Origin: Paludibacteraceae bacterium
GTDB taxonomy: Bacteria > Bacteroidota > Bacteroidia > Bacteroidales > Paludibacteraceae
Assembly: GCA_024401455.1 (NCBI GenBank)
Contig: JAKSLA010000032.1
Location: 1-34,608 of the forward strand
DNA: 34,608 nucleotides
Reading direction: 5' to 3'
Within the stretch, counting starts at the first letter, position 1. Each line of letters starts with the position of its first letter. Made by a program: the position numbers and the translations under genes. A model generated the notes under the pieces. That model did not search any database and was not told the DNA's origin. It was given only the letters and a program-made list of their open reading frames with translations. Positions 3,162 to 30,526 of the stretch are shown one piece after another.

Positions 3162-3190
3162 AAGGGGGAACTATAAAAATTCCTCCTTTT
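3160..3190. terminator. bidirectional terminator between convergent frames
   Basis: AAAAGGGGGAA (3160-3170) and TTCCTCCTTTT (3180-3190) pair over 11 bp with one mismatch, with A/T runs on both sides. It lies between the plus-strand remnant and the minus-strand 184-aa gene and overlaps the latter's stop codon. Confidence 0.6.
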
Positions 3191-3924: not shown

Positions 3925-3949
3925 AGCCTAATTTTTAGTTTAAAACTAT

Positions 3950-3981
3950 CAAATATAGATAAAATAAATCTAAATTTCAAA
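3950..3981 (-). promoter_or_regulatory. Bacteroidales-type promoter for 3924-3189
   Basis: On the minus strand TTTG (3978-3981), a 20-nt spacer and TATATTTG (3950-3957) match the Bacteroidales consensus TTTG / TAnnTTTG. It overlaps the stop of the upstream 76-aa gene. Confidence 0.75.
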
Positions 3982-4207: not shown

Positions 4208-4214
4208 AATCGTA

Positions 4215-5203: not shown

Positions 5204-5285
5204 CAAAGATAGCAATATAGTATGGTATAATAAACTAAAACACAGAGTGTTAGATACAAACACGCCCGACCCTCCCCCTCGCTCT
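5204..5285 (-). promoter_or_regulatory. promoter A: AGAGCGAGGGG element plus -7 box
   Basis: On the minus strand AGAGCGAGGGG (5275-5285) is followed, after a 63-nt gap, by TATCTTTG (5204-5211). GTGTTTTAGT lies 32 nt before the -7 box, exactly as in promoter B. No close TTTG -33 is seen, but TTAGTTTA occupies about that position. It drives the 85-aa gene. Confidence 0.75.
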
Positions 5286-5346
5286 TTTCACCCATTCGCA
5301 GAAGGAGTTCTGATGAAAGATAGAATTAAAAAACTGTAGATTTTTG

Positions 5347-5452
5347 TAAATTTGTATTTATACTGAAAATCCTCTTCGGAATTAGAAAAGGATTCTCATA
5401 ATATAAACTTGAATTTTGACGAGAATGGCTTGTGAAAGCTGTTCTCGTTTTT
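5347..5452 (+). ncRNA. candidate small RNA with promoter and terminator (plus strand)
   Basis: A plus-strand TAAATTTG (5347-5354) matches the -7 consensus, and about 90 nt later there is a strong terminator-like hairpin. That hairpin is ACGAGAA (5419-5425), an inner GCTT-GTGA-AAGC, TTCTCGT (5442-5448), then TTTT. A second hairpin, AATCCT/AGGATT, lies between. No protein frame of useful length starts here and the neighbouring genes are on the other strand, so a short RNA is one explanation. No TTTG -33 box is seen. Confidence 0.3.
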
Positions 5453-5457
5453 ATTAA

Positions 5458-5502
5458 GCAAAAGGGCAACCCCAGTTCTATGAACCGGGCTTGCCCCTTT
5501 GC
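5458..5502. other. long imperfect stem-loop
   Basis: GCAAAAGGGCAA (5458-5469) pairs with TTGCCCCTTTGC (5491-5502), continuing inward through CCC/GGG and GTTC-TAT-GAAC. It is a 45-nt structure in the space between the TOPRIM gene end and the 85-aa gene promoter. On the minus strand it is followed by TTAATAAAAAC, so it may act as terminator for the TOPRIM transcript. Confidence 0.5.
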
Positions 5503-5558
5503 TGATACTATGAATAAGAAAGGATATGCGAAAAGGTATGAAATAGTTTGGTTAATAG

Positions 5559-5582
5559 TTAGGAACACCGGCGATAGCCGGT
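5559..5582 (-). repeat. intergenic palindromic repeat, copy 2
   Basis: TTAGGAAC plus ACCGGC-GATA-GCCGGT (palindrome 5567-5582) ends 4 nt from the TOPRIM stop codon. It is identical in its 24 bp to copies 4 and 5. Unlike the other copies it has no terminator between it and the gene. Confidence 0.9.
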
Positions 5583-5586
5583 TTCT

Positions 5587-7170
5587 CTACATTCCTCTTG
5601 TTCGTTTGCTGGCTTTGGTCTCGGCTTGTGCCTGGCGATATTTTTCTTCCTGGCGTTGGGCAGCTTCGACTTCAAGGTTTTTCTTTTCAACGAGGTCGGG
5701 AGCATCGGGGATCCTTTCAGCAATGGTACTAAGGAATTTGCGGAAATCCTTGCCGTTGGAATAATGGAAATTATGGTCCTGGGATAAGGCTCGATATGTA
5801 GGATAGTCCATTCTTTTGGGCAATCCCAAATCGTTGAAGTGGTTGTCATTCCATAATGTGGCGTTGATTTTATTCAACATTTTCAAATCGTCGTTCCAAT
5901 CTTTTTCAACTGATTTTTCGCGTCTGATATTGCTGACCAACAGGTCGCTGTTAGTCAGCAACTCGCAAACGGCAATGTTAGCAAAGCGGTCGCTATTTGG
6001 TCGGACAATAGAGACATGACGGCGTTGGTCGTCGAAAGACACCTCGATGTTAGGCGTGTTGTCCTTATTAAGATAGGCGTTTGTCAGATTTTTAAACTTA
6101 TCGTATAAATCGGTCCTGACGTCAATATGAAGGTGTATATTCCCCGATTCAGAGAATTGGTCAAGTTTTAACTTGGCATTCTCTGATCCTTTTTTCAGGT
6201 TGGCGGCAGCCAATATAAATTGTATGTCGTAACGGGAACCCTGGACATCGTTGTCCGCTCCAAGTTGAAGTTTGAAATCGTCGGTCAGCTTGTTTTTGTT
6301 ACTTATCATCAAATTGAAGAATGTGTCAATTTGGGAAGGTATGAGAAAGCCTTGATGTGATACATACAAGGTGTTTGGCTGCTTGGTGAGCTGGTGGTGA
6401 GCCATGCAGTCGAATTCTGATTCGGCGATGAATATACGGTCTATCTTATCTGGGATGTTGGAATGCCACAATGTGGTCGAATGTTCGCTATTCGTCATCA
6501 GGACTGAAGAGAACTGCGATCTTGATTGGCTGTAGTATCGAAAATTCAGTCCTCCGACACTGCCATCGGCACGATAGCAGGGGAAGCAGAGGTCTGATTG
6601 GTGTCGTCTTGTGTCTTCGTCTTTATTGGTGTTGTACCATGTTCCCGCAAAAGTTGGAGAGAGGAAAGTTTCTTTGTTGATTCCCCGCTTAATGAAATTC
6701 TGGGTATATATGCCAGGTGCCATTATCCTTTTGGCAAGTTCTTCGTCAAAAGGTTCCCCTTTTTTCAGTACCGGTGCGGACGAATACATCTGTTTCCTGT
6801 CTTCATCGGGTATGGAGAGGTGATTACACATAATCTTTGCTACTTTTCGATTGATGTCGAATGAGCGGGGATCATTTGACGAAATAAGTGGATCTGGAAT
6901 AAGGTTGTTCTGCAAGGCATGCTTTACCAGCATGGCGGAGCCATTACCCCCTGTGTCGAATTCTGTTGATGAGAAATGCTGCATGCCGATTTGTGTCTTT
7001 GACGGTTGTATGAAGATGCGGTCGGTGTGGCTGTCTTTCGAACCGAAGACGAAACATCGGCCACCTCTCCATGACTTGCTTTTATCTTCCTGATAGCCTA
7101 GGGCCACGGCCATTTCAACCATGTCGATGCGTTGGTTCAACTCGTTGAGTGATATATTGGTGTAATCCAT
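5587..7170 (-). CDS. TOPRIM-domain primase-like protein (527 aa)
   Basis: This resembles mobile-element proteins with a DUF3991-type N-terminus and a Toprim_2 catalytic domain, related to DnaG primases. The TOPRIM acid motif is I-F-I-A-E250-S-E-F-D-C, and the second motif is L-G-A-D306-N-D308. Upstream, G-G-R-C-F-V-F-G and F-D-T-G-G-N-G-S-A replace the zinc-ribbon region of true primases, and Q-S-D-L-C-F-P-C-Y-R-A-D-G-S-V-G-G-L-N-F-R-Y resembles the RNA-polymerase-like fold of DnaG. The C-terminal 80 residues are charged and coiled-coil-like. It starts at ATG 7170 and is separated by 435 nt from the large operon. Priming of plasmid DNA after transfer is a reasonable role but is inferred. Confidence 0.8.
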   Translation of the reverse strand: MDYTNISLNELNQRIDMVEMAVALGYQEDKSKSWRGGRCFVFGSKDSHTDRIFIQPSKTQIGMQHFSSTEFDTGGNGSAMLVKHALQNNLIPDPLISSNDPRSFDINRKVAKIMCNHLSIPDEDRKQMYSSAPVLKKGEPFDEELAKRIMAPGIYTQNFIKRGINKETFLSPTFAGTWYNTNKDEDTRRHQSDLCFPCYRADGSVGGLNFRYYSQSRSQFSSVLMTNSEHSTTLWHSNIPDKIDRIFIAESEFDCMAHHQLTKQPNTLYVSHQGFLIPSQIDTFFNLMISNKNKLTDDFKLQLGADNDVQGSRYDIQFILAAANLKKGSENAKLKLDQFSESGNIHLHIDVRTDLYDKFKNLTNAYLNKDNTPNIEVSFDDQRRHVSIVRPNSDRFANIAVCELLTNSDLLVSNIRREKSVEKDWNDDLKMLNKINATLWNDNHFNDLGLPKRMDYPTYRALSQDHNFHYSNGKDFRKFLSTIAERIPDAPDLVEKKNLEVEAAQRQEEKYRQAQAETKASKRTRGM

Positions 7171-7182
7171 TTCCTATTTTGC

Positions 7183-7359
7183 TTAATGCTTGGGTGGTAA
7201 CCCAAGTATTATTGTTAGTGAGATGTGAGGTTTGTTTTTGATGTATATCCGTTTGATTATTGTACCTGCATATTCTTTGCCGACGGCTATGAATATGCAG
7301 CTGCAATAATGTATGAGTAGGGGTGGAATTGTTATTTTTTTTAAAGGAGTCCGCTTCAT
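7183..7359 (-). CDS. possible small ORF upstream of the TOPRIM gene (58 aa)
   Basis: ATG 7357-7359 to TAA 7183-7185 gives a basic peptide, M-K-R-T-P-L-K-K-I-T-I-P-P-L-L-I-H-Y-C-S-C-I, with a hydrophobic stretch and two Cys. It ends 12 nt before the TOPRIM start. A 7-bp hairpin (7189-7206) overlaps its end. There is no clear promoter or strong ribosome binding site. It may be a leader peptide, a tiny membrane protein or a chance frame. Confidence 0.25.
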   Translation of the reverse strand: MKRTPLKKITIPPLLIHYCSCIFIAVGKEYAGTIIKRIYIKNKPHISLTIILGLPPKH

Positions 7360-7605
7360 TTTAATTCTCTGGCTTATCTGTGAGGTACGAGCGGGTAAGA
7401 CAGTGTGTTAAAATGACTGGAGAGCCTGTTTTGACTGCATTTGCGGTTTGATAATTGCCAAGGTGGAGAGTTACACTTATTTCTCAGCGGTACCGCTCTG
7501 AAACTTGGAACTGAAAGATTAATACTGCTGTTGAAGCCTTGGCAACTGTTTTGAGTCTTATTTCAATCTTTGACTACGATGGAAAGAGTTAGATGGTAAA
7601 CGGGT
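7360..7605. other. non-coding, hairpin-rich spacer
   Basis: No supportable gene. TTGCCAAGG (7455-7463) and CCTTGGCAA (7537-7545) enclose 73 nt containing the perfect palindrome AGCGGTACCGCT (7486-7497), which could form one folded RNA domain. A second palindrome, ATGGTAAAC-GG-GTTTACCAT (7593-7612), overlaps the stop codon of the 1025-aa gene. This may be the 3' end of the long operon mRNA or a leader for the TOPRIM gene. Confidence 0.45.
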
Positions 7606-10600
7606 TTACCATTTAGGCGAGTTCTTTTGCTTTGTCTGATTGTCGTCTTGTGCCTGCTGCTGAGTTTGTGCCTGTGCCTGTGAAGGATTGTTCTGCAATT
7701 TGCTTGCGAACATGATTTTCACGGCATTGGAGTACGCCTGGTATTGATTAGGCATGTCTTTTTCCGCGGCGAGTTTGGCTTTGAATTCGGCTTCGTTCAA
7801 TCGTGGGTGTGAGTCTTCCCAAGCCTTGCGCTCCTGCTGTGCAATCTGCGGATTGTAAGAGGTGACGTTAGCGGTAAGGTTGCTGCTGTCTTTGACTTCG
7901 ACGCCCTTGAATTGGTAGTCTTTGACGTTAGGTTTGATGTTCTTGAACTGATCCATTGAAATATGGATATATTCATTGTGGACTTGCTTGCCGTCTTTGG
8001 TTTTGAAATCCTCGGTTGTGTGCGGTAGAGCCGCCAGTTCCTGTTTGTTGATTTTTATTACAGCGACGACGTTGGCGTTAGGTTCACCGTTCTTGTAAAC
8101 TTTAGGGTCTGCGATTACGAAGAAGTTAGGTTGTTTAATACCGTATTGGTTGACGGGGAAGTTGGATCCGTCAACCATTTTGAGTCCCTTTTCCCCAAGC
8201 TTTTCGGGAGAGAGGTCGCGTTTGACGATGGCAAGGTTGACATTGCCAAAATGGTCGCATTCCTGTAGGAATTTGATTTTGTTGGCGTCAAGTTTGATGT
8301 TGTGCATCATGACTGGATCGTTGTTGGCGTTGACTTTAAGATTACCGTCTTTGTCTTTAACCTGGAATCCGAAGGATTGTCCGAGATAGTTGTCGTCGTA
8401 TCTGTTAGGACCGACCTTGCCGAGGTTCTGCTGACTTGTCTTGTAATTCTCGAAAGAGTTGGTTGTGTGTATATTTGAGAAAATTTCAAGGTTCTTTTTG
8501 TCTGTGATCATTGGGTATTGTGAAGGGTTGAGTTGAACACCCCCCTCCTTTTTTCCGAATTTCAGGTCGATAGAACCGTCGTCAGCGATACCCGCTGCCT
8601 TGGCTGCTTTCAAAAGTGACTGTTTGTCGATTTTGATTTCGTACTGTGACTGAACATCGGCGAACTTAACCTGTTTGCCGTTGACTTCGACTTCTTTTCC
8701 TTGTCTGCTTGTGATAAGCATATGGGAACTGTTGTTCGCACTTTCCTTTGCCTTGGGAGAGACTACGACAGCGAGGTTGATCCATTCACCAGTTTTGCCG
8801 TTTTTGTCGGTGTACTGAGTGGTTGGAGCGTTGAGAAGTTTCTCCATTTTGATGCGTCCGGTAAAAGTGGGTTCTGCGGCTTTTTTCAAGTTTCCTTGTG
8901 CGTCTTTCTGCTGTGCGACGTTAGCATAACCGATGAATGAAGTAGAAACGCCAGTGTTCTGTTTCTTTTCTTGATCTTTTTGTTCTTCTGCCATATTAGA
9001 TGATTTATTAAGTGAATTATTAGTATTGTTTTTGTTATCTATGTTAGAGTATGATTTGTCATCATTCATACTGTTATCATTCTTGGTGACATGAATGTCT
9101 GCTGATAGTTCTTTACTAATATTAGTCAAATGGTTATCATAGACCTCAAGGGACTTCTTCAAGTTATCTATGCCTTTCAAATAAACCAAAGTGTCTGTAT
9201 CATTTGATTTTGAATCTAACTTCTTTGATTCATTTGTAATTTGGTCTATTTGTCTCTTCATCTCTTCTTTGTAAGAAAGAACTTGATCTGCATCCGCATG
9301 TTTTGACTCTTTCAAATCATCTATATCATCTGACAACATGCTTGCCTCACGTTGGAATCTCTCAAGATTATCAGCAAGAGTTTTGTCTTTGATGACAGAC
9401 TTCTCTACAAGTACAGTATTTGCAGAAATTCCATAGTCCCTTTCGATTTTGTCTTTTGAGTCACAACCTAATAGAGTAACCCCCCAAGATTCATGTTGCA
9501 TCGTTCCTGATAAGTAAAGAGTTTTTTCTTTCTTATCGTAATCGACAGAAGCGTATTGCGACACGTAAGGTTCTTCTTTTGTCACAGAGATTAAACTTAC
9601 GAGTTTTTCTATTGCTTGTATCTCAGAGTTAGATAGATCAATGTTTTTGATTGTGATGTTGTCATAATCTAACAAGTCTCCGCTATTGTAGCCTTCGGGA
9701 GATGTATTAGGATCGTATTGATTCCACTCTTGTTCTGATTTACTGAACTTGTCCCATAAAGCTCCTACAGTAATGTCAGAAGGATTATAATCTATAGATT
9801 GCGGTTCTCTAACCATTTTGTTATCTACGTACACGTTACTTTTCGTCTCTGCGGCGAGATTGAGATTATCTTCTTGTAGCCGCTTGGGATAAGCGTCTTT
9901 AAGAAGATTGTCAATGGGAGTTATCTTTGCCTTTTCAGCCTTGTTTTCGTTGTCGAAAACAAGGTTCATAGGTATCTCACGCTCCTTCAAATCCAGGTTG
10001 TATAGTTGTTTCTGGTAGATGTCGGGCTTCATTTCCTGGTTGAACTTTAGAAGGTTCTTGCTCTGTTCGGCCTCGGTCAGTCCGAATCGGTATCTTGTGT
10101 CTTCGTGACCTTGGCTTGGTGGCGTGATACAGAGTGTGACGAGTTTGACGTCAGCTGCTCCATGCTTGTAGAGTTCGTCAGTTATTGTGCGTGCGTGTTC
10201 GCCGTTGGTAAGAATATCATCTATGAGAATGATTTTCTTACCTTTTATTTTTTCGGTGTCGAAAACAAGTCCATCGAGGATGTTGTGGTTGTCTTTCTTG
10301 TGTGTGACCGGATCGACGGAGCTTTTCTTGTTTATAGTATTTACGATAGCGTCTGGCTCCTGATGAAGGTGAAACTTGTCTAGTTTCTCCTTCACCATGT
10401 GAAACCTTTGATTGGATCCGCCAATGTCTTTTGATGGTGTGTAAACGACAAGGGAGTCTTTGAAGGTTCCGTTGTCGAGCACAGCTTTTGACACGAGATT
10501 GGCGTAGGCATTAACAATTTTAGTTGTTGCGTGCCCTGTATGCTTGAAATCCATGAGTTCGTCATGAAAGACTTTTTCGTCTATGGATTTCAGATTATTG

Positions 10601-10683: not shown

Positions 10684-10688
10684 GATTG

Positions 10689-19652: not shown

Positions 19653-19655
19653 GAG

Positions 19656-20192: not shown

Positions 20193-20196
20193 GATT

Positions 20197-22209: not shown

Positions 22210-22227
22210 GGTTAATTTATTTTTTTA

Positions 22228-22235
22228 CAAATTTA
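22228..22235 (-). promoter_or_regulatory. -7 box for the four-gene operon
   Basis: TAAATTTG on the minus strand matches TAnnTTTG and lies 18 nt from the ATG of the 670-aa gene. No clear TTTG -33 box is visible at about 20 nt upstream. It would drive about 14.6 kb of mRNA. Confidence 0.5.
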
Positions 22236-22265
22236 CGAGTTAGAAAATAGAATGTTAAGAGTACA

Positions 22266-22281
22266 GTAGGCGATGACCTAC
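22266..22281. repeat. hairpin GTAGG-CGATGA-CCTAC (orientation 1)
   Basis: It lies 10 nt beyond the stop of the HTH gene. The 16-bp palindrome is the exact reverse complement of the one at 25624-25639, yet both are followed on the plus strand by AGAAATGAAA. The core GGCGAT-RR-CC resembles the core of the ACCGGC-GATA-GCCGGT repeat. Confidence 0.7.
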
Positions 22282-22291
22282 AGAAATGAAA

Positions 22292-22666
22292 CTAAGTTTC
22301 AATGGCACATACGATTTCAGAAAATTGCGTGAGGTTTTTGGACCTTTTATTGATTATCTTATCCTTTATCACCTTTTCCCAATTGGGTATGTCATCGAAC
22401 ATATCCTGCATATCGACACCAAGTGTTTGAAGTTTGCAGATCATTTTTATGTATGTGATTCCGACTACCTGTTTCCCTGACTCTACCTTCTTATATTGGT
22501 CGTAGTTCATGTGAAAGAAGTTGTTACACATGTTTTTTTTTGTGAGTGCCCTGCAATATGGGTTGACTCCCAGAACGGAACCGAGGACTTCTCTGATATA
22601 TGCGAGCCGCTGTCCGAAACGGACTGCATCAGGGTCCTTTTCATGCTGCGAATAAACCTTACTCAT
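22292..22666 (-). CDS. HTH (XRE-like) protein downstream of the coupling protein
   Basis: This 124-residue protein has a helix-turn-helix region (about 16-75): F-G-Q-R-L-A-Y-I-R-E-V-L-G, then N-Y-D-Q-Y-K-K-V-E-S-G-K-Q-V-V-G-I-T-Y-I-K-M-I-C-K-L-Q-T-L-G-V-D. The Y-x-x-x-E-S-G-K pattern is typical of XRE/Cro-type repressors. An insertion (V-N-P-Y-C-R-A-L-T-K-K-N-M-C-N-N-F-F-H) separates the first two helices, which is longer than usual. Its start overlaps the end of the coupling-protein gene by 8 nt, so it is translationally coupled to it and may regulate transfer or the large operon just downstream. Target unknown. Confidence 0.7.
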   Translation of the reverse strand: MSKVYSQHEKDPDAVRFGQRLAYIREVLGSVLGVNPYCRALTKKNMCNNFFHMNYDQYKKVESGKQVVGITYIKMICKLQTLGVDMQDMFDDIPNWEKVIKDKIINKRSKNLTQFSEIVCAIET

Positions 22667-25535
22667 TTGCCTGTTGTTTTAACCTTAGTTCGTTTGCTTC
22701 TTTGTGAAGACCGATAGCATCCAACTCGTCGGCTTCGAATTTTTCTTTCTTCAAGACTTGCAGGCGTCGTTTCCACAAAGAGTTGTTCTCGTGATAAAGA
22801 ACGCCAAGCATGTCATTGATGAGCATCTTTATGTCCTGACAAATCTTGTCGCTGTTTTTATTGAGGACTTCGTTCATCTTATCGTCACGGATCTTTGCGA
22901 GTTCGGCTTTAATTTCCACATACGGATTTAAGACGTAACGTAGAGATTCGATATATTTTCTTATTGTGAATTCTACCGTATCGGAAAGGTCTCCATTGAG
23001 ACTGCCTTTCTGGAACTGAATGACCTTGTTGTTGAATTCCGCAATCTTAGCCTTGATGGTGATACATCCAAACGGTATATTTGCGTTGGTTTCAAGCTCT
23101 ATCCAATCATAGGCCTCCTTGATAAATGTCTTGATGGAGTTGATGGCAGTGTTGCAAAACTCTTCCGTAGCCTTTTCTTTATTTAGACGGGATTTGAATG
23201 ATAAGAGCTTGCCAGCGGCAGCCTTCAAGTCTCCCTCGTGAATCATGACCGCTTTCAGAATCTCCTTTGCGAAACGGTATAATGTGTCGGCTACCATATA
23301 ATCATATTTTCCTTCCTGGTTTTTATATTCGGAAGTGAAAAGCAGTGAAATAACCTTTTTTATATTGATGTCTTTTCCCTGGTCCAACAGTTGCTTGAAA
23401 TCATCAATAGTAGCAAGGTTATTCTTAACCAGGATGTCATTCGTCAAGAAGGTCCTCGAATCCTCGCAATAGTCAATCATCTTCTTGCAGAGTTTGCAGG
23501 CGACTGAAGGAGTGTCAAAATTCCAGAAAGTAGGCAAAGGGCGGTAATGCTTTTCCTCACGCTTAACTAATGGAATGTCTATCTGAATCTGTGCGTTGAA
23601 ACGCTTTTCGACGATGTTCTCGCCAACGTTGTCGGTCACTTTTCCAACGAAGTTACCCTGTGACAATGTTGCGATTTTGGAAGCTGGTATCAGCGTGTCG
23701 TTTTGTTCTGAGATTGAGTAAGACTCTCCGTTGTCGGAATAAGAAACGGATTTGCGTTTCTGCTTGTTTTTTCCGAATTCAGCTTCCAGCGCCTTGGCCG
23801 TCTCTCCGGTCACCATGCCGGAAAACAAATTACCTACCGTGTTGATGATGGCGTTTGCTTCTTTATCTCCGTAATCTCGTTTCAATTGGGAAAAGTCTTG
23901 ATAACCAAGCACAGTGGCTATGTAATTACTTCGAGCGGTGGCAATCAGGTTGTCGAGCCCTCTAAAGTACATCGTTGGCAACTCGTCAATAATAAGTGTG
24001 ATTGGGTGCTGGTGTTTCTTGTTTATAATCTTAACAATACGACCATTGTAAAGTCCTAAAGCTGTTGCGTAAATGTCTTTTTTTTCAGGGTTGTTTCCAA
24101 CACATAAGACTTTCGGATCCTCTGGGTTGTTAAGGTCGAGCGTGAAGTCATCGCCCGACATCACCCAATATAGTTGTGGTGAACTGATACGTGAGAGAGG
24201 GATACGCACGGAAGCGATCTGACCTTGTAGCTGGTCTTGCGCTCCACCCTCCCATGCTTCGAAAAACGCCGCCATATAGTTATTCAGTTCTGGGTAGGCG
24301 GACATAAGAGGTATAACGTCAGTATATGACTCGTTGACGAGTTGGACTACATGAGGAAGAGTGCAATACTTTCCACCTTTGACTTTTTTGAGATACCAAA
24401 TACATGATGTCAAATAGTTTATAGGAGACTCAACAAAGAAATCACCCTGCTTTTGAGCCCACGACTTGTTAAGATTAAGCATGATCGTGTAAGCACTGTC
24501 GTAAGCATCTGTTATTTCTTTAAGGAAATCGTGACGAATTGGATTGCATCGCATTGATTTTCTAGGATCATCAAAATTGATGACGCAAAATTTCGGTTCT
24601 ATGCCATATCGTCGTCGGAAACTGTCTTTGTACTGCAACATATTGTTGTAAACAATAAGTGACAGATCCGGGAATTTGAAGTCATAACAATACATACAAA
24701 AATTTTTCTTCATATGTTGTCTAATGAACTCATTGATGATTGCGAATGACTTACCAGAACCTGGTGTTCCGATAACCTGGACAGCTCGGAACGGATTGAT
24801 ACAGTTTATCCAGCCGTCGTAAGTTTTTCCATGATATTTGAATTTAGTACGCCAGTTGACAGAGTACTCGTTTTCCTGAATCTCCATTTCCTGTTTGAAA
24901 GACTCCTGCACATTATTATTGGCATCATCATCCTCATCTTCATAATCCTTAACCATAGAGTGAATCAGATTGGCACCAAGAATAAAGTAAGCGAAGCCGA
25001 AAGCAGAGAACACTACATACAAGAGATAACCGAGGGTGTAGAATAAGGATGGCTCACTGAATAATATTAAAGGAAGAACCGAGAAAATTACGAGGAATAG
25101 TCCAAGACATAAAGCCACTTGGCCCTCAACACGCTCCCTTTTCTTCTCTAGGCAAGGCAGACCATTCTTGTTTGTAGTCTGCTCATACTCGAATTTTGGG
25201 TGAATATCGTACTTAACCATAATAGGCAAAATCACTCTCATCAGTTTAGGAGGAGAGTATTTCAATGTCTTGGTCTTTCTATTGCCCCAAACGAAAAGAC
25301 CTATTAGAGTCAAGGCTATAAGAAGTGTAACATAAGGAGAAGCGAAAAGAAAGAGTTTCTTCTCCAGAAAATCACGCACAATCACCGACGTGTCGGATGG
25401 TTGAACCAACCCCAACTTACCCATAGCAGGGTATGCGTAATAAATAAGGTTGGCGAGGTAAAAGAAGGAACCGATGAACATCAACATGTTGTTGTTCTTG
25501 GAAATCCCCTCTTCGTAATGAATGCTGTCTGCCAT
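22659..25535 (-). CDS. traG: TraG/VirD4-family coupling protein (T4CP), 958 aa
   Basis: Inner-membrane ATPase that links the relaxosome to a type IV secretion channel. The N-terminal 200 residues carry about four membrane helices (near 14-35, 50-75, 135-160, 165-195). The cytoplasmic ATPase follows: Walker A G256-T-P-G-S-G-K-S263 and Walker B L-T-L-I-I-D517-E-L-P-T, then A-T-A-R-S-N-Y-I-A-T-V-L-G-Y-Q-D-F-S-Q-L, the usual T4CP glutamine motif. About 280 extra C-terminal residues (after about 680) are charged and helical and may bind substrate. No secretion-channel genes are in the window, so the element may use another element's channel. It starts at ATG 25535, downstream of its own promoter, and overlaps the HTH gene. 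Confidence 0.93.
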   Translation of the reverse strand: MADSIHYEEGISKNNNMLMFIGSFFYLANLIYYAYPAMGKLGLVQPSDTSVIVRDFLEKKLFLFASPYVTLLIALTLIGLFVWGNRKTKTLKYSPPKLMRVILPIMVKYDIHPKFEYEQTTNKNGLPCLEKKRERVEGQVALCLGLFLVIFSVLPLILFSEPSLFYTLGYLLYVVFSAFGFAYFILGANLIHSMVKDYEDEDDDANNNVQESFKQEMEIQENEYSVNWRTKFKYHGKTYDGWINCINPFRAVQVIGTPGSGKSFAIINEFIRQHMKKNFCMYCYDFKFPDLSLIVYNNMLQYKDSFRRRYGIEPKFCVINFDDPRKSMRCNPIRHDFLKEITDAYDSAYTIMLNLNKSWAQKQGDFFVESPINYLTSCIWYLKKVKGGKYCTLPHVVQLVNESYTDVIPLMSAYPELNNYMAAFFEAWEGGAQDQLQGQIASVRIPLSRISSPQLYWVMSGDDFTLDLNNPEDPKVLCVGNNPEKKDIYATALGLYNGRIVKIINKKHQHPITLIIDELPTMYFRGLDNLIATARSNYIATVLGYQDFSQLKRDYGDKEANAIINTVGNLFSGMVTGETAKALEAEFGKNKQKRKSVSYSDNGESYSISEQNDTLIPASKIATLSQGNFVGKVTDNVGENIVEKRFNAQIQIDIPLVKREEKHYRPLPTFWNFDTPSVACKLCKKMIDYCEDSRTFLTNDILVKNNLATIDDFKQLLDQGKDINIKKVISLLFTSEYKNQEGKYDYMVADTLYRFAKEILKAVMIHEGDLKAAAGKLLSFKSRLNKEKATEEFCNTAINSIKTFIKEAYDWIELETNANIPFGCITIKAKIAEFNNKVIQFQKGSLNGDLSDTVEFTIRKYIESLRYVLNPYVEIKAELAKIRDDKMNEVLNKNSDKICQDIKMLINDMLGVLYHENNSLWKRRLQVLKKEKFEADELDAIGLHKEANELRLKQQANE

Positions 25536-25585
25536 AATAAAGTGAATAAAGGATTAAACCAAATCCAACTGTTGGAATTGGCACA

Positions 25586-25593
25586 CAAAAGTA
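25586..25593 (-). promoter_or_regulatory. -7 box for the coupling-protein gene
   Basis: TACTTTTG on the minus strand fits TAnnTTTG and lies about 50 nt upstream of ATG 25535, in the 121-nt gap after dnaG. No TTTG -33 box was found. A small CCAAC-TGTTGG inverted repeat (25565-25575) lies between it and the gene. Confidence 0.5.
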
Positions 25594-25623
25594 GATACCG
25601 AAAAAAGAACAGACTTGTATGCT

Positions 25624-25639
25624 GTAGGTCATCGCCTAC
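25624..25639. repeat. hairpin GTAGG-TCATCG-CCTAC (orientation 2)
   Basis: It lies 17 nt beyond the dnaG stop; with flanking bases the stem is 7 bp (CTGTAGG/CCTACAG). It is the exact inverse of the 22266 hairpin, with the same right flank AGAAATGAAA. It may act as a 3' mRNA structure or recombination-type element. Confidence 0.7.
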
Positions 25640-25656
25640 AGAAATGAAAAAATGTG

Positions 25657-26892
25657 TTAGAGTTTTTCCAAAATTTCCAGAACATCATTGAGAATGGCGT
25701 TTTTTTCTGACTTATCATCGGAAACGGAATTTTTAAGAACGTTTGCAAAAAAGCGAAGGAAGGGGATGGTATTTCTCTCCATATACTCGTTTATAGCATC
25801 AATTGAATTCTCTCGTGCGAAATCGTCAGCATCCTTAGTAGAAGGTAGCGGGATAACATTCACATCAAAACCTAAAGACAGAAGGGTTTTGCCTGCCTTG
25901 ATATTAGCCTCACACCCTGCCTTATCCCCATCAAACATAAGGGTGACAGTTCGTTTGCCATCAGTAGAAGGCAGAAAACGACGAAGTAGCTTTGCGTGCT
26001 CCTGAGTAAAAGCCGTGCCACAAGAAGCGACAACATTCTTTATACCCTTTTGATGCATCGAAATAACGTCGCAGTAACCTTCGACCACAATAACATTCTT
26101 TTCCCGAAAAATGGCTTCCTTTGCTTGGTACAGGCCGTAAAGGGTGCTGCTTTTACTATATATGTCAGAAGTAGCAGAGTTGATGTATTTGGCAGTGTTG
26201 TTTTTCAGATTATTCTGAAAAGAACGCCCTGCAAAAGCAACAATATCGCCATCCTCATTTTGAATTGGAAACACTACCCTACCAGAAAAGACGTCAACTG
26301 ACTTTCCGTCTTTATCATCACGAATCACTCGAATATTTTGCAAGTCTTTTTTTCCATAACCATGTTCTCTAGCTTCCTTGCAATGATTGAAATTACAGTT
26401 AGAAGAAAATCCAAGGGAAAACTCCTTGATAGACTCATCGTTGAATTCTCTTTTAAATTTGAGGTATTCAAGAGCCTCTGAGCCACTGGCTCCATACAGA
26501 CATCTTGAAAAACTATCTGCCATGAAATGGGCTGTGTACAACATTCGTTTTCTTGCTCGGAATGCAGATCTTTCTTCTTCGGTATAGCTTTTTCTGACAG
26601 GTGTCGTTTCTATGCCGTATCTGTCGGCTAAATATTTGACGGCTTCTGTAAAACTGCATTTCTTATAGAGCTGTATGAAAGTAAACACATCACCATGTGA
26701 GTGGTCAGCACCATAACATGTAAAAGTATTTTTCTTGACGTTGACATAAAAAGAAGGTGTCTTCTCTTCATGAAAAGGGCAACAGCAAACATAGTTGCTA
26801 CCCAATCTTTTTAGCGGGATGAAATCCTCTATTACTTCTTTAATAGAAGCCACAGATTTTACCTTTGAAATTATTTCATTTTCCATATTCAA
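25657..26892 (-). CDS. dnaG: DnaG-type DNA primase, short form (411 aa)
   Basis: Makes RNA primers for DNA synthesis. The N-terminal zinc-ribbon region contains C38-P-F-H41-E-E-K-T-P-S-F and C59-Y-G-A62-D-H-S-H-G-D. The usual fourth ligand (CxxC) is replaced by Ala, so H64 or H66 may coordinate zinc or the site is altered. The catalytic core follows, with TOPRIM motifs V-V-E271-G-Y-C-D and F-D321-G-D323-K-A-G. The protein ends soon after the TOPRIM region and lacks the C-terminal helicase-binding domain of chromosomal DnaG (about 600 aa). That is typical of plasmid or phage primases that act on transferred single strands. ATG 26892 is chosen; ATG 26886 is possible. Monocistronic, with its own promoter. 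Confidence 0.93.
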   Translation of the reverse strand: MNMENEIISKVKSVASIKEVIEDFIPLKRLGSNYVCCCPFHEEKTPSFYVNVKKNTFTCYGADHSHGDVFTFIQLYKKCSFTEAVKYLADRYGIETTPVRKSYTEEERSAFRARKRMLYTAHFMADSFSRCLYGASGSEALEYLKFKREFNDESIKEFSLGFSSNCNFNHCKEAREHGYGKKDLQNIRVIRDDKDGKSVDVFSGRVVFPIQNEDGDIVAFAGRSFQNNLKNNTAKYINSATSDIYSKSSTLYGLYQAKEAIFREKNVIVVEGYCDVISMHQKGIKNVVASCGTAFTQEHAKLLRRFLPSTDGKRTVTLMFDGDKAGCEANIKAGKTLLSLGFDVNVIPLPSTKDADDFARENSIDAINEYMERNTIPFLRFFANVLKNSVSDDKSEKNAILNDVLEILEKL

Positions 26893-26919
26893 TCGACAAT
26901 AATTAGTTTGATTACGCTA

Positions 26920-26950
26920 CAAAATTAGGCATAAATATCTATATATCAAA
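26920..26950 (-). promoter_or_regulatory. Bacteroidales-type promoter for dnaG
   Basis: On the minus strand TTTG (26947-26950), 19 nt, then TAATTTTG (26920-26927) fit the consensus; the ATG follows 28 nt later. Confidence 0.7.
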
Positions 26951-27000
26951 ATTTTAGGTTTACAAAAAGCAAAATCGGTTTAATTTTTTATTTGAAAAAT

Positions 27001-27025
27001 TTAGGAACACCAGCGATAGCTTGGT
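27001..27025 (-). repeat. intergenic palindromic repeat, copy 3 (diverged)
   Basis: TTAGGAAC is followed by ACC-AGC-GATA-GCT-TGGT. Relative to the other copies the stem has the paired change G-to-A / C-to-T, which keeps base pairing, plus a one-base bulge. It lies 8 nt beyond the terminator of the YubB-like gene. Confidence 0.8.
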
Positions 27026-27033
27026 CGCAAAAA

Positions 27034-27060
27034 AAGACTTGAAAAAGAGAATCAAGTCTT
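27034..27060 (-). terminator. intrinsic terminator of the YubB-like gene
   Basis: AAGACTTGA (27034-27042) and TCAAGTCTT (27052-27060) form a perfect 9-bp stem. On the minus strand it is followed by T7. It lies 15 nt past the stop codon. Confidence 0.9.
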
Positions 27061-27075
27061 CTTAATTTTTACACA

Positions 27076-27630
27076 TCAGTCTTCAATATAGGTGTATTCG
27101 TGAATATAGACATACTTGTCGCAATCGGTGTGTTCTTCATTGAACTTCTCGCACCATTCTTCCACCTGCTCACGAGTGCCGACTTCTTCCTTTCCGATAT
27201 GGGAACAAGCCGCTTTTAGCATTTCCTCTTCCGTTTCGTATTCCTCGCAACAGCATTCATCGGTGTCCAAAAGGTACATATACGGATAATCGGGGTCATT
27301 GGTGATATAGACGTCCATACCACATTCTTCGGTCACATAGTAGATTTTCAAGTCTTCAAACTTGCTTTCCAAGAACTCTCGCCATTCGTTGCACTCGCTC
27401 CAAGCAGTTTCGCAGTGGAGTTTGATGCAATCATCATCTTCAACATCATAATCGTTTATCCAACCTCTTGCATACACGTTACACTCTCCGTTGTTCAAAT
27501 CTTCAACAACTCTACCTAACCAATTGTGGTTATTATCATTTTTGTCATTGAAGTGACCTTCGATAAGGTTGAAAACCTTGCGTGCATCTTTACCCGTCAA
27601 GGTGTAAGTGGTAGTCGCCCAATTTGGCAT
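27076..27630 (-). CDS. YubB/Api92-like ferredoxin-fold protein (184 aa)
   Basis: The N-terminus M-P-N-W-A-T-T-T-Y-T-L-T-G matches the M-P-N-W-x-x-N-x-L-x-x-x-G opening of plasmid YubB / phage Api92-like proteins (DUF1281 type), whose function is unknown. The rest is highly acidic with many aromatics and a cysteine cluster (D-E-C-C-C-E-E-Y). I chose ATG 27630, because the longer reading would need TTG 27636 and the M-P-N-W start is the family's. Single gene with promoter B and its own terminator. Such acidic accessory proteins are often antirestriction-like or DNA mimics; for this one that is only a thought. Confidence 0.8.
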   Translation of the reverse strand: MPNWATTTYTLTGKDARKVFNLIEGHFNDKNDNNHNWLGRVVEDLNNGECNVYARGWINDYDVEDDDCIKLHCETAWSECNEWREFLESKFEDLKIYYVTEECGMDVYITNDPDYPYMYLLDTDECCCEEYETEEEMLKAACSHIGKEEVGTREQVEEWCEKFNEEHTDCDKYVYIHEYTYIED

Positions 27631-27673
27631 AATCAATTAAATATTAAATGTTTAACAATAATTTTTCTTTATA

Positions 27674-27755
27674 CAAAGATACCACCATTAGCAGAGATAA
27701 AGAACTAAAACACAATATCTTAACAACCTTCCACCGCAACCCCTCCCCTCGCTCT
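27674..27755 (-). promoter_or_regulatory. promoter B: AGAGCGAGGGG element plus -7 box
   Basis: AGAGCGAGGGG (27745-27755) and TATCTTTG (27674-27681) have the same spacing as in promoter A, and GTGTTTTAGT again lies exactly 32 nt before the -7 box. It drives the YubB-like gene. Confidence 0.8.
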
Positions 27756-27766
27756 AAGGACAAAAA

Positions 27767-27790
27767 AAAGACTGTCACCTGACAGTCTTT
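27767..27790 (-). terminator. intrinsic terminator (perfect 11-bp stem)
   Basis: AAAGACTGTCA-CC-TGACAGTCTTT, with T8 on the minus strand, lies 6 nt after the end of the interrupted 72-codon frame. The terminator and its right flank recur almost identically at the end of mobA (30527-30550), together with the AGAGCGAGGGG element. Confidence 0.92.
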
Positions 27791-27796
27791 AAATCT

Positions 27797-28012
27797 TCAC
27801 TCTTTGGAAGGAACTATTAGTTTCTTCAAAGCTTCGGGAATTTTGAAATAATCGTTTAAGAATTTTGTCAGTTCTAAAGATGAGATCTCGTCATCTTCAG
27901 CCAGGACCATTCGCAACAACCGGTTGTCAGCTGTATCTGATTCAGAATAGACAGCGCCGTCGTCAAAGTCGGTCAGATTGAGTAATTATTGAAACAAATT
28001 CACACGATTCAT
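27797..28012 (-). pseudogene. 72-codon gene with an in-frame TAA at codon 9
   Basis: ATG 28010-28012 reads M-N-R-V-N-L-F-Q-TAA, then stays open in the same frame for 62 codons to TGA 27797, ending K-L-I-V-P-S-K-E. The downstream part (D-D-G-A-V-Y-S-E-S-D-T-A-D-N-R-L-L-R-M) is acidic and protein-like, and it ends exactly before a strong terminator, so a gene was here. Either a point mutation broke it or translation starts internally (ATG 27947-27949 gives 50 residues). Family not recognized. Confidence 0.5.
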
Positions 28013-28025
28013 AATATAATTTGAC

Positions 28026-28053
28026 GGACAGATTGGCGGTAGTTGGTCTGTCC
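28026..28053. other. hairpin in the leader of the interrupted gene
   Basis: GGACAGA (28026-28032) and TCTGTCC (28047-28053) form a perfect 7-bp stem with a 14-nt loop, between palindromic repeat copy 4 and the interrupted gene. It may be a leader structure or operator. Confidence 0.45.
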
Positions 28054-28059
28054 ATTTTG

Positions 28060-28083
28060 TTAGGAACACCGGCGATAGCCGGT
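28060..28083 (-). repeat. intergenic palindromic repeat, copy 4
   Basis: TTAGGAAC plus ACCGGC-GATA-GCCGGT (palindrome 28068-28083), identical to copies 2 and 5. The terminator of the zinc-ribbon gene lies 10 nt to its right. Confidence 0.9.
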
Positions 28084-28093
28084 CGGAAACAAA

Positions 28094-28116
28094 GCAGTTC
28101 ACCATTGGTGAACTGC
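28094..28116 (-). terminator. terminator of the zinc-ribbon gene pair
   Basis: GCAGTTCACC-ATT-GGTGAACTGC is a perfect 10-bp stem. The T-run on the minus strand is short and interrupted. It lies 15 nt after the stop of the 58-aa gene. Confidence 0.75.
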
Positions 28117-28131
28117 CATTTAATTTAATAA

Positions 28132-28308
28132 TCACTCATCATACCATTCGGTATAATAACTTTGGTCATTTTCTTCGCACTCCTGCTTCCATTCCTCATC
28201 TGTGAAATCAGTATGAAGACAATCATCACTGCAATAGTATTTGTATCCCCAGTCGTAACAATACCCTTCACGAATTGGTTTTCCACAAACCGAACAAAAT
28301 CTTTCCAT
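28132..28308 (-). CDS. small zinc-ribbon-like protein (58 aa)
   Basis: The sequence is M-E-R-F-C-S-V-C-G-K-P-I-R-E-G-Y-C. A C-x2-C pair near the N-terminus and C-S-D-D-C (residues about 30-34) make a four-cysteine zinc knuckle; the tail is acidic and aromatic. I chose ATG 28308 because it lies 2 nt after the stop of the 50-aa frame, so the two are translationally coupled. The longer reading from 28365 overlaps that frame. Likely a small DNA- or protein-binding accessory factor; function unknown. Confidence 0.75.
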   Translation of the reverse strand: MERFCSVCGKPIREGYCYDWGYKYYCSDDCLHTDFTDEEWKQECEENDQSYYTEWYDE

Positions 28309-28310
28309 TT

Positions 28311-28463
28311 TTAGAATTTGTATGTTATTACATTGAACTTTCCATTGCCATACTTGTGTATGCAATAGAATTTAAAATTATTAACCTCCGTATATGAATG
28401 TAGCAACTTGCTACGTTCAGACGCATTAGAGAAATCTGATTTAAAAGTAACTTTGTAACACAT
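28311..28463 (-). CDS. small protein (50 aa) coupled to the zinc-ribbon gene
   Basis: ATG 28461-28463 to TAA 28311-28313 gives M-C-Y-K-V-T-F-K-S-D-F-S-N-A-S-E-R-S-K-L and ends N-V-I-T-Y-K-F. It lies between promoter C (44 nt upstream) and the zinc-ribbon gene (2 nt downstream). That position explains the otherwise empty 200 nt after the promoter and makes it a credible gene. The pattern looks like a beta-alpha-beta mini-fold. No family recognized. Confidence 0.6.
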   Translation of the reverse strand: MCYKVTFKSDFSNASERSKLLHSYTEVNNFKFYCIHKYGNGKFNVITYKF

Positions 28464-28506
28464 AATATAAACTTGATTAAATTATTGATTTTCAATTTTC
28501 TATATA

Positions 28507-28588
28507 CAAATTTATTGTAATTAAGGTTTATAAACTACTATTATTCAATATCTTACAATAAAACACACTCGACTCTTCCCCTCGCTCT
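28507..28588 (-). promoter_or_regulatory. promoter C: AGAGCGAGGGG element plus -7 box
   Basis: AGAGCGAGGGG (28578-28588) and TAAATTTG (28507-28514) keep the same spacing as promoters A and B. GTGTTTTA is also present but nearer the upstream element. It drives the 50-aa and zinc-ribbon genes. Confidence 0.75.
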
Positions 28589-28661
28589 TTTTCTTAATCT
28601 TGAAGTTGATTTCAAGTTAACCCAATATCAATTCCATACCTTTCATAACATAGTGATCAAA
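28589..28661. other. gene-free spacer between promoter C and a terminator
   Basis: No frame longer than about 9 codons. Together with the hairpins at 28662-28738 it makes a 165-nt space holding two terminators and one palindromic repeat but no gene, as if a cargo gene had been lost. Confidence 0.4.
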
Positions 28662-28677
28662 AAAGACGATAGTCTTT
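28662..28677 (-). terminator. short hairpin terminator
   Basis: AAAGAC-GATA-GTCTTT followed by T-run on the minus strand. The GATA/TATC loop is the same as in the palindromic repeat 4 nt to its right. Confidence 0.6.
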
Positions 28678-28681
28678 ATAG

Positions 28682-28705
28682 TTAGGAACACCGGCGATAG
28701 CCGGT
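28682..28705 (-). repeat. intergenic palindromic repeat, copy 5
   Basis: TTAGGAAC plus ACCGGC-GATA-GCCGGT (palindrome 28690-28705). The terminator of the PcfJ-like gene lies 10 nt to its right. Confidence 0.9.
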
Positions 28706-28715
28706 TGCGAAAAAA

Positions 28716-28738
28716 TAGTCCGTTTCTCCAACGAACCA
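28716..28738 (-). terminator. terminator of the PcfJ-like gene
   Basis: Minus-strand TGGTTCGTT-GGAGA-AACGGACTA pairs over about 9 bp with two G-T pairs and is followed by T5. It lies 15 nt past the stop. Confidence 0.75.
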
Positions 28739-28753
28739 TTTTCTATTATTTAG

Positions 28754-29965
28754 TTAAGCAGCATTCTGCAATATCTGTCTCTTTCTTGTTTTCAATCTCC
28801 ATTCATTGGACTTGAAAATCTGCACCATATCATCATACCTTTCGGGAACTTTGTTGCAGACTGCTCTGCACTGCACAATTTCCTTTCGCTTGGCATCGTA
28901 TTCGAGAGTAGCGAGTCTATTGTTTTCGGCATCACGAATTGAGAAGATGACAACATCCTTTTTTAGATAATATCTGCATTGATAAACGCAGTGGTGCATT
29001 GCCTTGCCTTCATCATAGTATTCCTTGACTGAAGAAAGTGCGTGATAGAAAAGACCACCTTCTTCAAACATAATGCCCAGGTACTTCTTGTGCGAAGTGG
29101 CGAAATCATCTTCCAATAAATCTATCTTTTCCATTTCCTTAATCTCATCTAATTTTGCCTTTCTTCTTACGGCAATATCGTGTTGGTGTCGCCAATCAGC
29201 AAGTAATTTAGGGTTGTGCCAATCAATTCCAACTTCTTGCATAAGTGATATGCTGTCTTTCCATAGTGTGAAATCGTCTTTTGACAAACCACTAATATCA
29301 ATACCGAACCTAAGATTAAGAAGCATTGCCTTCTTATGTTCTTCGGTGGAAAAATTGTAGAGTGACAATTTCCATTGGTTGCTCTTGATAAGGGTTTCAT
29401 AGAAAGGTTCTTTTGTCACCAACTTCATAAGGTAACGGAAATCACTATTCTTTTTGTCAAAGTAACAAACCTTATCATTGGTAAGACCATTTCTTCTCAA
29501 TATAGGGTGAAGTGTGCTACCCCCAATCTTATCACCATAGCAATTGGCGAAATATTCAGCATTGCTATAAGGCACCAACTTTCGGTAACGCATAGGCGAA
29601 AAGGTGTTCCACCCTCTGCCCATAAAAGAGAGTGGGCGTTGCATATAGTGTTCTTCAAAGGTTTTCACATTGAAGAAATACTGCGACACTTCTTCAAACT
29701 CATTGACTTCGTATCGTGTCTGCCTATTGGAAACACATATGACCGATTGAAACACACGATGTATCCGCCAATCACCCTTATATTGTAAGAGAGAGAAAAG
29801 TTTTTCATCCTTGAAACACCTTCTGCCCTTCTTGGCATAACTTTCTTTGTTCTGCTCAATAAATGCCTTGTGCTTCTCTATTGCCCATTCAACGTGCTTA
29901 ACGGAAATCTCATCAAGACTTTCACTAAGGGTTTCTATCATTTTCTTTGCTGAAATCTTCTTCAT
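28754..29965 (-). CDS. pcfJ: PcfJ-like protein (403 aa)
   Basis: Resembles the PcfJ family found beside PcfK on conjugative plasmids such as pCF10; exact biochemistry unknown. The diagnostic C-terminal part is A-M-H-H-C-V-Y-Q-C-R-Y-Y-L-K-K-D-V-V-I-F-S-I-R-D followed by R-L-A-T-L-E-Y and I-V-Q-C-R-A-V-C-N-K. The N-terminal 290 residues are basic and helical. I chose ATG 29965 (M-K-K-I-S-A-K-K) over ATG 29980 because GGAGGA sits 7 nt before it as a clear ribosome-binding site. The upstream PcfK-like gene ends 18 nt before this start, so both are one operon under promoter D. Confidence 0.85.
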   Translation of the reverse strand: MKKISAKKMIETLSESLDEISVKHVEWAIEKHKAFIEQNKESYAKKGRRCFKDEKLFSLLQYKGDWRIHRVFQSVICVSNRQTRYEVNEFEEVSQYFFNVKTFEEHYMQRPLSFMGRGWNTFSPMRYRKLVPYSNAEYFANCYGDKIGGSTLHPILRRNGLTNDKVCYFDKKNSDFRYLMKLVTKEPFYETLIKSNQWKLSLYNFSTEEHKKAMLLNLRFGIDISGLSKDDFTLWKDSISLMQEVGIDWHNPKLLADWRHQHDIAVRRKAKLDEIKEMEKIDLLEDDFATSHKKYLGIMFEEGGLFYHALSSVKEYYDEGKAMHHCVYQCRYYLKKDVVIFSIRDAENNRLATLEYDAKRKEIVQCRAVCNKVPERYDDMVQIFKSNEWRLKTRKRQILQNAA

Positions 29966-29983
29966 AGCATTTCCTCCCATATT

Positions 29984-30403
29984 TTAATCAAACAGACTGA
30001 GTTGAACATATTGTGGGTTCTTGCTTTCCTTCTTGGGTGCTTGTTTTACCACTTTCTGCATTGGCACAACCTGTGCAGAAGAAACGACTGCCTTCGGTTT
30101 TTCCTTCTCCTTTAATTCTTCATCAATACTATCTTCATTGTAGTAATGAAAAGCAAGGTCGAGCAACTTGAACACATTGGTGCAGAAACTGTGTGCCTTC
30201 CCTTCTCTTGCTTGTTTTTCCACTTCGATAGTGATATACTTCCAACAATTCTCAAAGGACTTATTTTCCTTTGCATACATCTTGGCGAAATCAGCGTCTT
30301 CTTTTGCCTTGTGGTCAAGAAAAAACTTAAACAATTCTTCAGTACTGAGTTCACCATTATTCATTTTGGAGCAAACTTCGTTTATAAAATCTTGTGTAAA
30401 CAT
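29984..30403 (-). CDS. pcfK: PcfK-like protein with C-terminal clamp-binding motif (139 aa)
   Basis: The central part, K-S-F-E-N-C-W-K-Y-I-T-I-E-V-E and L-L-D-L-A-F-H-Y-Y-N-E-D-S-I-D, fits the PcfK family (a C-x-x-Y-I motif, then H-Y-Y-x-E-D-x-I). A Lys/Glu/Val-rich linker follows, and the protein ends Y-V-Q-L-S-L-F-D. Q-L-S-L-F is the canonical beta-sliding-clamp-binding pentapeptide, so recruitment to the replisome is likely (inference). I chose ATG 30403, which is downstream of the promoter D -7 box (30435-30442); the longer frame to 30538 would run through that promoter. Paired with the PcfJ-like gene, as in Gram-positive conjugative plasmids. Confidence 0.82.
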   Translation of the reverse strand: MFTQDFINEVCSKMNNGELSTEELFKFFLDHKAKEDADFAKMYAKENKSFENCWKYITIEVEKQAREGKAHSFCTNVFKLLDLAFHYYNEDSIDEELKEKEKPKAVVSSAQVVPMQKVVKQAPKKESKNPQYVQLSLFD

Positions 30404-30434
30404 ATCATTGTTTTTTTTATTATTTTTCTTTTTA

Positions 30435-30515
30435 CAAAGATACGAAAACACACAACCTAATAAACTAATTATCAAAACATTACCATATAATACCCGCAAC
30501 CTCTCCCCTCGCTCT
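30435..30515 (-). promoter_or_regulatory. promoter D: AGAGCGAGGGG element plus -7 box
   Basis: AGAGCGAGGGG (30505-30515) lies one nt closer than in A-C to TATCTTTG (30435-30442); AGTTTATTAG falls near the -33 position. The element and the terminator to its right are a near-copy of 27741-27805. It drives pcfK-pcfJ. Confidence 0.8.
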
Positions 30516-30526
30516 AAGGACAAAAA

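Follow-up and report, generated by a model that had tools for sequence, protein, structure and literature searches.

We have analysed the 34,608-nt contig JAKSLA010000032.1 of a Paludibacteraceae bacterium over its whole length (hereafter the window; contig C46 of a draft genome, G000, made of 119 contigs), and found that four of its promoters share three sequence blocks at fixed spacing: a distal, purine-rich 21-nt box, AGAGCGAGGGGRRGRGTYGNG, a proximal block, and a -7 box of the Bacteroidales type, TAnnTTTG. These boxes are probably the control region of a plasmid-specific regulon of exchangeable accessory units, which would be governed by a trans-acting plasmid protein. Pfam matches identify the window as a conjugative element, with a MobA/VirD2-type relaxase, a weak MobC match, a TraG-type coupling protein and a DnaG-type primase, and further matches are to a 2987-aa protein with helicase domains, RadC, PcfK and PcfJ. 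An earlier note on this DNA had described an 11-bp core of the box in front of four small genes, and had proposed that a bound activator or repressor controls them as one regulon. The element is real, and it is larger than was described there: the full 21-nt box, the proximal block, the hairpins at the 3' ends of the units and the exchange of units between plasmids had been missed.

Distal box, proximal block and -7 box

The 11-mer AGAGCGAGGGG is present in the window in four exact copies (5275-5285, 27745-27755, 28578-28588 and 30505-30515), where 0.02 would be expected and none of 100 shuffles reached four; all of them lie on the minus strand, as do the other promoter blocks, unit genes, hairpins and candidate regulator described below. 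This confirms the four exact copies of the earlier note. Allowing up to two mismatches adds two copies, and the six then found are at chance level (4.03 expected). The gap between the last base of the 11-mer and the first base of TAnnTTTG is 63, 63, 63 and 62 nt, giving spans of 82, 82, 82 and 81 nt; the distances of 64, 64, 64 and 63 nt given earlier are the same gaps counted as offsets. The -7 boxes, found by a spaced-pattern match, are TATCTTTG in the promoters of an 85-aa open reading frame (ORF; o85, 5204..5211), of the YubB-like gene (27674..27681) and of PcfK (30435..30442), and TAAATTTG in that of the zinc-ribbon gene (28507..28514). Since TAnnTTTG is found only 35 times over both strands of the window, about once per 2000 positions per strand, four matches in a 2-nt slot are far from chance, and copy number and spacing together rule out a chance origin of the boxed promoters. 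Exact match, spacing and alignment define the full box, the 11-mer plus a tail, which begins 73-74 nt before the -7 box and is placed at 5265..5285 before the o85-RadC unit, at 27735..27755 before the YubB-like gene, at 28568..28588 before the zinc-ribbon gene and at 30495..30515 before PcfK-PcfJ.

A scan for the extended box in 84,980 species genomes gave eight matches to the 21-nt pattern in seven stretches. Four of these stretches, with single matches in Myxococcales, Planctomycetota (2) and Dehalococcoidia, are GC-rich and show no TAnnTTTG in the part displayed; they were set aside as chance matches. The scan also matched a metagenome-assembled genome (MAG) from horse faeces labelled Bacilli (JAKSHZ, Horse_feces8 MAG008; G418). 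Its contig C13 (JAKSHZ010000011.1, 49,917 nt), with T4SS-type (type IV secretion system) genes and a ParA-like gene by eye, matches the window at 99.1-99.5% in blocks of 18,274, 4,116, 3,246 and 629 nt, and at 95.1% in one block of 1,141 nt. A second contig, C115 (JAKSHZ010000031.1), encodes a Rep_3-type initiator and, by eye, a DnaB-type helicase. Because they share the box, the hairpins and a gene pair 58% identical between contigs, we infer that C13 and C115 belong to one plasmid. No match to the C115 initiator was found in the window's own genome, whose assembly may thus lack some of the plasmid. As the promoters of this plasmid are of the Bacteroidales type, its contigs were probably misbinned in a MAG labelled Bacilli.

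The two genomes that hold the 11-mer have twelve copies of it, five in the own genome and seven in the horse-faeces MAG. Eight are the full 21-nt box, one of them leading an Rpn-type PD-(D/E)XK gene that the window does not have, and all eight have the 62-63 nt gap; the other four, on C86 of the own genome and at +128, +5270 and -8974 of C115, have neither the tail nor the gap. The earlier note had taken copies at no fixed distance in related genomes as evidence against a shared control element, and on this point the outcome is mixed for the bare 11-mer (4/12 off the spacing) and clean for the 21-nt box (8/8). The C86 copy, the fifth 11-mer of the own genome, is one arm of a terminator-like hairpin with no TAnnTTTG at 56-74 nt, and the idea that the box is half of a terminator holds for this copy only. 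The copy at +128 is followed by a reversed hairpin, and that at +5270 lies within a coding frame.

Between box and -7 box the DNA had been described as mostly unrelated, which is only half right, although the stretch GTGTTTTAGT reported as common to the copies at 5275 and 27745 is indeed there. Alignment of five promoters (o85, YubB-like, zinc ribbon, PcfK and Rpn, with one gap in PcfK) revealed a second block, TAA-N5-TG-N5-TANT-N3-TTA, at a fixed offset before the -7 box. From the extended box to the -7 box, 12 of 52 columns are invariant in the five promoters, compared with a shuffle mean of 1.5 and a maximum of 7 in 5000, a null that is lenient because some of the aligned promoters share descent. 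The proximal block is placed at 5228..5252 (o85), 27698..27722 (YubB-like), 28531..28555 (zinc ribbon) and 30458..30482 (PcfK, 1 nt nearer the -7 box), and it ends in a poor -33 element, only TTA/TTG. Used as a classifier, it scores 11/11 in the four boxed promoters and no more than 7 in the other 31 window TAnnTTTG. Among promoters outside the derivation set, taken from the diverged plasmids of genomes G003 and G063 described below, G003 C32:2196 and C28:22872 score 11, and G003 C32:11504 and G063 C51:7874 score 9; the C32 promoters rank first and second in their contig and the C51 promoter first in its own, and C28:22872 is alone in scoring 8 or more within the 20 kb of C28 scanned. Without the distal box, proximal block plus -7 box gave 13 matches in 393 genomes, three of them in the own genome, and the reversed control gave two. 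This pair alone is not diagnostic, because the ten matches outside the own genome have no G-rich distal region and the reversed control also matches.

Units, their hairpins and their exchange

The unit led by o85 (4901..5158; no Pfam, relevant NCBIfam or PADLOC match) continues with RadC (4215..4829; PF04002, E 8.4e-40) and three further ORFs of 95, 62 and 184 aa (3189..4264). The YubB-like gene (27076..27627) keeps the label of the earlier note, with no Pfam or NCBIfam match, and the small zinc-ribbon gene (28132..28308) matches PF09297 at 20.2 bits, below the cut-off of 24.8. The remaining unit holds PcfK (29984..30400; PF14058, E 1.1e-10) and PcfJ (28754..29980; PF14284, E 3.6e-25). PADLOC gave no match for 10 proteins. 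The proposal that the four leading genes form a regulon is well supported by the spacing, the second block and the same layout in diverged plasmids, whereas the units are longer than the four genes named. Between the zinc-ribbon promoter and its gene, an ORF of 50 codons was read by eye at 28311-28463.

In the elements of G003 and G063, whose relaxase is 42% identical to that of the window, the box is a different one, CAAGGGGGTWGGGTGTCGGG. Four exact copies were found in G003, G063, G162 and G418 together (3 in G003, 1 in G063), all beginning 71 nt before TAnnTTTG; two copies with three mismatches are in unrelated G003 repeats with no -7 box. This box leads a YubB-like operon in G003 and in G063, a unit of unknown genes in G003, and PcfK-PcfJ on G003 C28. 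The cargo is related to that of the window, with identities of 46% and 44% for the YubB-like proteins, and of 70% for PcfK and 80% for PcfJ of G003 C28, a contig whose sole link to the plasmid is a lipoprotein-like gene with 81% identity to a gene of C115, which there likewise stands beside an 11-mer-led unit. The same cargo is thus preceded by whichever box belongs to its plasmid, that of the window or that of G003. The box type goes with the plasmid rather than with the cargo, as expected if a plasmid-specific protein reads it. On G162:C160 (L055, L057, L061), a more distant relative, about ten intergenic copies of TTAGGGAGGGG are found on both strands, two of them about 77 nt before TAnnTTT(A/G); this may or may not represent a third box version, and it was kept apart from the element described here.

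A hairpin around GCTANCGC closes all 12 units led by a full box (window 4/4, C13 3/3, C115 1/1, G003 3/3, G063 1/1). In the window, pattern matches with the tail GTTCCTAA were found at the ends of the PcfK-PcfJ unit (28682..28705), the zinc-ribbon unit (28060..28083) and the o85-RadC unit (2909..2932). The YubB-like unit ends in a diverged hairpin with a bulged stem and the same tail (27001..27025), which in both window and C13 was picked up only by looser patterns. Hairpins are also found outside boxed units: after the long tra-side operon, which is not a boxed unit (5559..5582 of the window, with GTTCCTAA; C13 30495), and on two G063 contigs with no visible box (first 20 kb of G063:C53 scanned), that of G063:C69 directly following a 5'-truncated zinc-ribbon homologue. 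The tail GTTCCTAA is constant in the window type, is GTGCCTAA in two G063 copies and differs in G003. In an alignment of 14 of 17 hairpins (13 distinct) one stem pair covaries (C-G 6, G-C 5, A-U 1, unpaired 1), with a score above 500/500 shuffles and all slid controls; the number of covarying pairs, one, does not beat shuffles. Directly upstream of 11 of the 17 hairpins there is a stem of 10 or more pairs, in most cases with a T-rich 3' arm, so that the hairpin probably lies outside many transcripts.

The own genome has four hairpins at up to three mismatches and five by the looser pattern, all on the window contig. Searched at up to one mismatch in 300 genomes, the pattern matched the own genome five times, G063 twice and G172 once; single matches of this kind mean little, because the reversed control matched four genomes once each, and the G172 match, being inside a coding frame, was dropped. 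REP (repetitive extragenic palindromic) sequences are likewise short GC-rich palindromes at the 3' ends of genes, with many dispersed chromosomal copies and an associated RAYT transposase. The present hairpins differ from them in marking the ends of boxed units and in being restricted, within the own genome and at up to three mismatches, to the window contig.

Comparison of window and C13, the one plasmid pair on which the unit swap rests, places an exchange at both signals. The mob side is alike up to AGAGCGAGGGG-GGTTGCGG, the sequences then diverge, and identity resumes at the first bases of the hairpin, GACCGGCTATCGCCGGT. The interval holds the PcfK-PcfJ and zinc-ribbon units in the window and, in C13, one unit of two other genes, one of them weakly DUF2958-like, below the cut-off. 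Furthermore, the last genes of the o85-RadC unit (the 62- and 184-aa ORFs) have been replaced in the sibling plasmid up to terminator and hairpin.

Proposed control of the units and its alternatives

Most likely, a plasmid-encoded DNA-binding protein would read the distal box and/or the proximal block of each promoter and so co-control variable accessory units, which would be exchanged between plasmids bounded by box and hairpin. The bound activator or repressor of the earlier note is plausible, and no regulator was identified. We lean to activation, with repression as the main alternative, because the box has the position typical of upstream activators and the -33 element, TTA/TTG, is poor. 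The genes that would be controlled, namely RadC, YubB-like, PcfK-PcfJ and zinc ribbon, and in the sibling the Rpn-type PD-(D/E)XK and weakly DUF2958-like genes, look like establishment or host-interaction cargo.

A candidate for the regulator, and only that, is the XRE-like ORF o124 (22292..22666), which directly follows TraG in the window as similar ORFs do in G003 and G063; inspection by eye showed look-alikes in G162 and G038. HTH_3 is matched by the G003 protein (E 2.6e-6), to which the window protein is 26% identical over 72 aa (E 3e-5 in this one comparison). On C115, a small basic ORF resembled a ribbon-helix-helix (RHH) protein, but it has no RHH Pfam match and only weak relatives, and is not supported as regulator.

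Several observations weigh against the proposed regulon. The window XRE-like ORF matched no family, and its AlphaFold2 model, with a pLDDT (predicted local distance difference test) of 41, is uninformative. Among the unit proteins tested, Pfam, NCBIfam and PADLOC revealed no classical anti-defence gene. The five aligned promoters are partly related by descent, and in C13 the promoter at 4095 and that of the YubB-like gene are 97% alike, a case of promoter duplication; concerted evolution by such duplication could also make the boxes uniform within a plasmid. Finally, the 11-mer at C115 -8974 leads a hairpin-closed unit, yet it has no tail and its gap is 94 nt. At that locus (L092 8869-8974) an inverted repeat that overlaps the -7 box comes after the 11-mer, as does a small basic ORF of unassigned family.

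The closest known kind of system is the establishment regulons of the Bacillus pLS20/p576 plasmids, with different signals. A conserved sequence (EGeRS1/EGeRS2) is described upstream of several small operons of pLS20-family conjugative plasmids; these operons vary between close plasmids while the transfer genes are conserved, and the upstream sequences are most alike within one plasmid (PMC8708921). Rapid, transient expression following transfer is a further mark of such regulons. Here, too, one conserved sequence precedes several operons of a conjugative plasmid, and operons vary between near-identical plasmids, one unit block being replaced and another unit partly replaced between window and C13. 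Phylum and promoter type are different, and the signal is a short one of three blocks, whereas EGeRS1 consists of 400-750 bp structured regions and EGeRS2 of TTATCCC dual motifs, and the 3' hairpin at each boxed unit goes unmentioned in the sections consulted (PMC8708921). A signal of the EGeRS1/EGeRS2 type was not found in the boxed promoters: the sequence is another, there are no strong folds, and neither an RHH match nor a Reg repressor was found. The anti-restriction gene ardC had no Pfam, NCBIfam or PADLOC match among the unit proteins tested, from a replicon that is incomplete. We therefore do not file the boxed regulon as a pLS20/p576 member, although the organisation is alike, because signals, ArdC and repressor were not found.

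It is nevertheless conceivable, if unlikely, that the units form a repressor-controlled establishment regulon as on p576. A plasmid repressor bound beside the -33 region would then keep the promoters silent in the donor, and they would be active for a short time once the plasmid had reached a recipient lacking that repressor. Variable operons under a common upstream signal would agree with this model, and the proximal block covers the -33 element and the bases directly upstream of it, much as p576 operators are reported to lie just upstream of the -35 box (PMC8708921). However, conservation is highest in the distal box, which stands over 50 nt upstream of the -7 box and thus far from a simple repressor position, and no RHH-type repressor was recognised, the small basic C115 ORF included.

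That no plasmid regulator exists, and that the blocks instead set promoter strength through recognition by a host factor or the host's own RNA polymerase, with boxes alike within a plasmid through promoter copying from unit to unit, seems improbable. Promoter copying does occur, as the C13 promoter at 4095 shows, but a host-read element should be common on the chromosome, and box plus -7 box was found only in the own genome among 298 genomes of relatives (own included), and there only on the window contig (the reversed pattern matched one genome once). Furthermore, two plasmids from one host genus (G000, G003) have different box types.

Still harder to sustain is the view that box and hairpin are mainly recombination sites bounding mobile cassettes, with promoter spacing secondary. 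The breakpoints between window and C13, just after ...GGTTGCGG of the box and at the first hairpin bases, and the covarying stems would agree with it. The DNA from box to -7 box, however, is heavily diverged while the spacing and 12 columns are kept, which points to selection on promoter function, and the one clean swap is explained by short-homology recombination; no recombinase has been linked to these sites, though no search aimed at one was made.

We give next to no credit to single-stranded-DNA promoters of the Frpo/ssi type or to a G-quadruplex switch: the box is G-rich, and Frpo/ssi are likewise repeated promoters for helper genes of conjugative elements (PMC11541004), but the present promoters lack the folded hairpin carrying -35 and -10 and have no significant secondary structure (14 folds of seven promoters as DNA, both strands, z -1.5 to 1.6), and the canonical four-G-run motif is in only one of the seven.

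Returning to a trans-acting plasmid protein, a wider picture can be offered tentatively, with more doubt than belief. Bacteroidales conjugative plasmids might carry a modular establishment island, its units each starting with a plasmid-specific activator box in a constant position and ending in a covarying hairpin, swapped at both signals and adopting the box type of the host plasmid, so that one regulator would command any cargo. If true, box and hairpin would be a readable signature for the establishment or anti-defence cargo of Bacteroidales plasmids, and any gene between them would be a candidate, most of these (o85, YubB-like, zinc ribbon, PcfK-PcfJ) being of unknown function. The joint switching-on of such cargo in a dominant gut phylum would become directly testable. 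In the literature searched, no establishment regulon is described for this phylum, and no earlier description of the element was found in open-access searches, by which subscription papers were mostly not covered.

Wider searches and neighbouring features

In a viral collection the 21-nt pattern had one match, in GC-rich, coding-looking DNA, the spaced 11-mer pattern had five loci and PcfK three; the YubB-like protein, the hairpin pattern and the G003-type box had none. A plasmid collection gave no DNA match to window 26900-30640 and no zinc-ribbon or o85 protein match, with three weak YubB-like matches and many distant MobA and TraG matches, among them Bacteroides, Parabacteroides and Prevotella records, which together with the promoter type point to a Bacteroidales host. 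At 18 further zinc-ribbon loci, some with short upstream DNA, the hairpin is present at one (G063:C69) and the box at none. Three distant zinc-ribbon homologues (L114, L119, L122) share a stretch containing CGAGGGGAGAGGT close before the matched part, 13 nt of which equal the window PcfK box region. Rfam found no family at gathering score in the window.

At 130-2517 of the window a Tn3-type transposase borders directly on an HU-like fragment of 63 aa. In the sibling C13 the corresponding protein has 87 aa, so that a transposon insertion seems to have cut the HU gene. At the other end, the window closes with 12-nt tandem repeats (34530-34608), and the assembly breaks at these repeats, since this is also where C13 begins. 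C13 lacks most of the DnaG-type primase region (25684-26849) and has a TnpB-like ORF there by eye (L089 7614-8927), and a further IS200/TnpB-like pair is found at 27209-28831 of C13.

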